Source of the DNA: Thermococcus sp.
GTDB lineage: Archaea > Methanobacteriota_B > Thermococci > Thermococcales > Thermococcaceae
NCBI GenBank assembly: GCA_015523195.1
Contig: WAKU01000086.1
Span: 1 to 43,910 of the forward strand
DNA length: 43,910 nt
Direction: 5' to 3'
Shown here: positions 40,363 to 40,580 of the stretch, one piece after another
Numbering within the stretch: the first letter of the stretch is position 1
Layout: every line of letters begins with the position of its first letter
The notes under the pieces: model-generated
Database searches by the model: none
What the model was told of the DNA's origin: nothing
Seen by the model: the letters and a program-made list of their open reading frames with translations, nothing else
Translations under genes and position numbers: made by a program

Positions 40363-40580
40363 AAGTGTGGCCCGCCCGTAACCCCCGCCCTCATCAGTGC
40401 CTGACGGCGGACTCAGACGGGTTAACCCAGGCGGGCCTTTTGTGCCCGGTCTGGGTTTCCCGCGGTCATCGCGCTCCGTAACGCGGAAAGCCCTCCCGCG
40501 GGGACCTCGCTGAGACCGGGCTGTAGCCCCCACATCGCCCCCCGGTTCATTCTCCCCGGGGTCCTCGCGCGGGGGCATCG
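40363..40580 (-). ncRNA. H/ACA guide sRNA with three tandem hairpins
   Basis: Three lower-stem/pocket/upper-stem/K-turn-like units, each followed by ACA (40522-40524, 40441-40443, 40366-40368); 15 nt from upper stem to ACA in all three; TATA-like tttttaag (centre ~40601) about 25 nt upstream. Confidence 0.85.

Follow-up and report, generated by a model that had tools for sequence, protein, structure and literature searches.

The closest described system is the three-motif box H/ACA guide RNA of Thermococcales known as HgcG, Pab40, Pf7 or Tko1 (Rfam family RF00064); its transcription, RNP assembly and pseudouridylation are the subject of published work in P. abyssi and in T. kodakarensis (PMC4652768, PMC6138745). 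RNA-seq in P. abyssi places the start of the Pab40 transcript at base 1 of the first H/ACA motif (PMC4652768). In 23S rRNA, U2588 is a published target of Pab40 (PMC6138745) and L2016 is the published target of Pa40.3 (PMC4652768), and in T. kodakarensis Psi2592, which corresponds to P. abyssi 2588, depends on Cbf5, Nop10 and Gar1 (PMC6138745).

Identity and distribution of the locus

In the window (the whole analyzed stretch, 43,910 nucleotides), an Rfam scan matches the RF00064 (HgcG/Pab40) covariance model over its entire length, positions 1-276 of 276, with 199.1 bits and an E-value of 1.5e-56, above the gathering cut-off of 77 bits. This is the outcome of the Infernal/Rfam search proposed in an earlier, sequence-only reading, which had described an archaeal H/ACA guide RNA of three hairpins and surmised that a related Pyrococcus family might be known; the match to HgcG/Pab40/Pf7, together with the fold and the conserved stems and boxes, bears out both statements, and any Rfam scan names the locus HgcG/Pab40. 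The first ~57 model positions are unstructured upstream sequence. The features of the locus are the following:

40361-40632, minus strand: RF00064 covariance model match, including the promoter
40599-40605, minus strand: TATA-like box TTTTTAA, 23-29 nt upstream of H1
40366-40576, minus strand: mature HgcG/Pab40 H/ACA guide RNA with three hairpins (from the RF00064 match and the P. abyssi transcript start)
40522-40576, minus strand: hairpin 1 (H1), which ends in ACA and has the pockets GCGAGGA (40568-40562) and GGCGAU (40539-40534); predicted target 23S U2588
40441-40521, minus strand: hairpin 2 (H2), which ends in ACA and has the pockets CAGCGAGGUC (40512-40503) and AAACCC (40458-40453); predicted target 23S U2678
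40504-40511, minus strand: AGCGAGGU, segment of the H2 5' pocket, invariant in 87/87 relatives and a perfect complement of 23S 2589-2596
40366-40437, minus strand: hairpin 3 (H3), which ends in ACA and has the pockets UGGGUUAA (40429-40422) and GGUUACG (40383-40377); predicted target 23S U2016

Matches above the cut-off are present in 90 of the 95 Thermococcaceae genomes, including all 75 near-complete ones and all six genera, as a single copy per genome, and the match in genome G004 (382332-382604) coincides with the published coordinates of P. abyssi Pab40 (PMC4652768). Four of the fifteen weak second matches within the family were scanned, and all four are HgcE. By its sequence, the locus is assigned as an orthologue of HgcG/Pab40/Pf7, an ordinary member of a family that is already known and universal in Thermococcales. 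Outside this order, only three relatives were detected within the class, all of them below the threshold (62.7 and 35.3 bits); these HgcG-like RNAs (L127, L128 and L129) retain the H1 pocket GCGAGG, and H2 and H3 could not be confidently matched in them.

A tRNA-Glu gene, suggested earlier as a syntenic neighbor across Thermococcales, lies upstream in only 2 of the 87 loci, so that this synteny is not general. Elsewhere in the window, two plus-strand ORFs of 56 aa (39784-39954) and 48 aa (40086-40232) have similar C-termini (FELELLG and YEVELI) and are located downstream of a TRAP-transporter-like permease; these are possibly tandem small-protein paralogues.

Hairpin architecture and conservation

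The unconstrained minimum-energy fold of the RNA consists of exactly the three units drawn on the minus strand from the sequence alone (-126.2 kcal/mol). All three hairpins contain the lower stem, two-sided pocket, upper stem, GA/UGA apex and ANA spacing that had been recognized as the geometry of archaeal H/ACA RNAs. The spacing of 15 nt between upper stem and ACA holds throughout when counted from the last Watson-Crick pair. Guide:target pairing requires that the non-canonical closing pair (A.G, C.A, A.G) be counted with the stem, which leaves 14 nt in each hairpin; both values fit the published range of 14-16 nt (PMC4652768). End-to-end packing is found for H1 and H2, which abut, but not for H2 and H3, which are separated by 3 nt (AAA), a spacer that differs among relatives. 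The TATA-like box placed ~25 nt upstream (TTTTTAA) is part of a conserved promoter: the box occupies -30 to -23 in the alignment, and none of the 87 relatives has a G or C in columns -28 to -24.

In the alignment of 87 HgcG sequences, where a cell is one stem position in one sequence, the pockets vary little or not at all and the stems change with compensation. The two H1 stems are paired in 696/696 and 518/522 cells and those of H3 in 683/687 and 595/608. The pair types are CG/GC/AT/TA in the H1 upper stem, CG/TA and TA/AT in the H2 lower stem, GC/AT/TG/GT/CG in the H2 upper stem (up to five per position) and CG/TA/TG in the H3 upper stem. H1 and H2 end with ACA in all 87 sequences and H3 with ACA or AUA; H1 conserves the UGA side of the K-turn or K-loop, H2 and H3 nearly conserve it, and the GA side is mostly conserved. 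Stem covariation together with conserved K-turns and ANA boxes is the opposite of the sequence features that had been named in advance as grounds for abandoning the guide RNA assignment. The apical UCCGCGUUACGGA hairpin of H2 (~40490-40470, minus strand) is also nearly invariant across Thermococcales, despite its position outside the guiding stems and pockets.

A 100-aa minus-strand ORF (40578-40276) overlaps the HgcG locus, and the stretch might accordingly be viewed as coding sequence or as a chance cluster of GC-rich inverted repeats. This reading, which is already refuted by the covariation, has virtually no chance of being correct given the compensatory stem changes, the invariant pockets and the indels that are not multiples of three among the 87 sequences, as well as the E-value of 1.5e-56 for the RNA model.

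Predicted rRNA targets and proposed guiding mechanism

Because 16S and 23S genes were not found in the draft assembly that contains the window (86.6% complete), the targets were predicted from the rRNA of relatives, using the 23S sequences of 18 of them and P. abyssi numbering; an offset of 26 puts the published positions 2588, 2016, 2603, 2672, 2685 and 1932 on uridines. The four candidate 23S sites are identical in 18/18 relatives, and two-sided complementarity around a uridine is present at U2588, U2678 and U2016. A strict scan, with the register set from the last Watson-Crick pair, missed all three sites, whereas the register with the non-canonical closing pair recovered all of them; the latter was thus chosen with the published targets of H1 and H3 already known, and the 500 shuffled guides used for comparison share it. 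In the 16S and 23S rRNA of one relative, the top site is U2588 for H1 (6+4 pairs; score reached by 13/500 shuffled guides), U2016 for H3 (6+5 pairs; 2/500) and U2678 for H2, where it is the only passing site (4+7 pairs; 1/500). The best site is well separated from the runner-up for each hairpin.

These observations are compatible with the following mechanism. In each hairpin, the K-turn or K-loop would be bound by L7Ae, and the ANA box and lower stem by the Cbf5-Nop10-Gar1 set; the two-sided pocket would then pair with 23S rRNA on both sides of a single uridine, the expected substrate for conversion to pseudouridine by Cbf5. H1 would guide modification of U2588 and H3 that of U2016, as published for the Pyrococcus RNA and as predicted by the pairing computed here in relatives. 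When folded in the form with order-wide covariation, H2 would pair around the putative target U2678, which we take to be equivalent to E. coli U2586 and haloarchaeal Psi2621. The genome harboring the window encodes cbf5 (453.7 bits) and a Gar1 candidate just below the Pfam cut-off (25.8 vs 29.3 bits). Taken as a whole, we consider it nearly certain that the locus is the HgcG (Pab40/Pf7/Tko1) gene, a three-motif box H/ACA guide in which H1 is directed to U2588, H3 to U2016 and, by prediction, H2 to U2678 through the mechanism inferred above.

The fold of H2

The H2 structure drawn by the sequence-only reading differs from the Rfam consensus. Its upper stem is paired in 604 of 609 cells (99-100% in each of the six genera), exceeding every shuffle (mean 567.6, maximum 577; shuffles uncorrected for relatedness). 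The two helices that Rfam places in H2 are 98% paired in Pyrococcus and only 79-80% and 64-69% paired in the larger of the remaining genera, and in the 87-sequence alignment they neither exceed the shuffles in pairing nor covary; the middle pair of the CGAGG hairpin of this consensus forms in 8/87 sequences, and the apical stem is 64% paired in one genus (g1). Although the shuffles ignore relatedness, the two folds differ strongly when compared on one alignment. In constrained folding at 37 C, the fold of the sequence-only reading is better by 6.8-21.4 kcal/mol in all 78 non-Pyrococcus sequences, and it also wins in 78/78 at 85 C. In Pyrococcus, the two folds are close in energy, and according to these models Pyrococcus H2 is able to form both. 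An alternative Pab40 fold was reportedly proposed in 2008 for the U2678 site.

It is nevertheless conceivable that H2 adopts the published Pab40.2 fold here too, with a short CGAGG hairpin and a long apical stem, and guides modification of 23S U1932 as in P. abyssi. The Rfam consensus draws this fold, which is also the minimum-energy fold of P. abyssi H2, Pab40.2 is listed with the target L1932 (PMC4652768), and all 18 relatives retain the U1932 site. We regard this as quite improbable since the window H2 reaches only -29.2 in the Rfam fold vs -45.9 in the fold of the sequence-only reading, a cost of ~17 kcal/mol, since all 78 non-Pyrococcus sequences give the same preference at both temperatures, and since the Rfam helices are incompletely paired in the larger non-Pyrococcus genera. 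Together, the alignment and the computed energies suggest that the Rfam drawing of H2 is wrong outside Pyrococcus and that the covarying fold is the better supported one. The misfit calls into question the drawing in the model rather than the orthology because the published experimental and sequence-based definition of the family is independent of it.

The target of H2

Given that the covarying fold is paired in all genera and the Rfam helices only in Pyrococcus, Thermococcus-type H2 most likely acts on U2678; thus, the target of this hairpin is probably U2678 in Thermococcus-type RNAs, compared with the published U1932 in Pyrococcus. This assignment is weakened, at least for P. abyssi, by a report, cited in a passage of PMC2584109, that the U2678 equivalent is unmodified in that species. 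The same report would fit the idea that H2 no longer guides any site in Thermococcus and is retained only for a structural role in the RNP. That is unlikely in view of the GGUC and AACCC segments of H2, which are invariant in 87/87 sequences, the covariation of the upper stem and the site score that only 1/500 shuffled guides equaled. Returning to U2678 as the predicted target, we tentatively consider that H2 might have switched targets by refolding, so that Pyrococcus can form a second fold directed to U1932 and all other Thermococcales are locked into the U2678 fold with the same invariant pocket letters, a scenario to which we give somewhat less than an even chance. If it is true, Thermococcales carry a lineage-dependent switch of rRNA modification. 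U2678 lies in the peptidyl-transferase region; reports of Psi at this site so far concern haloarchaea, and P. abyssi reportedly lacks it. The covarying fold predicts Psi at the equivalent position in Thermococcus; deletions of cbf5, nop10 and gar1 are available in T. kodakarensis.

The invariant AGCGAGGU is longer than pairing with U2678 needs, and its complement in 23S rRNA adjoins both the H1 site and Psi2585 (Psi2589 in T. kodakarensis), an orphan pseudouridine (PMC6138745). When the 8-mer is permuted, about 7% of the versions are exactly complementary to rRNA by chance, and GCGAGG is common to H1 and H2, perhaps owing to duplication; this complementarity is therefore just a lead. We examined H2 as the missing guide for Psi2585 and found the proposal unsupported and highly doubtful: the 5' side pairs perfectly, the 3' pocket pairs poorly, and Pab40 was negative in vitro.

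Comparison with known systems

The gene itself encodes a routine housekeeping RNA, and the by-product of its analysis is a correction of the Rfam H2 structure, which fits Pyrococcus only. HgcE/Pab105 (RF00060) is also a thermococcal multi-hairpin H/ACA RNA but has its own gene and represents its own family. The HP1/Hvo1 RNA of Haloferax volcanii, the Psi2621 guide, is described as the homologue of Pf7 stem II and has the same predicted 23S position as the window H2 (PMC2584109); by description, the haloarchaeal RNA differs in that a long spacer lies between this motif and its partner hairpin. The closest counterpart is HgcG/Pab40/Pf7/Tko1, with which the locus shares the order of its three hairpins, the ANA boxes and K-turns, the promoter position and the U2588 and U2016 pockets, whereas the window H1 has a shorter upper stem with a K-loop-like apex (GGGGAGAAUGAA) and the window H2 is predicted to be unable to stably form the Rfam/Pyrococcus fold.
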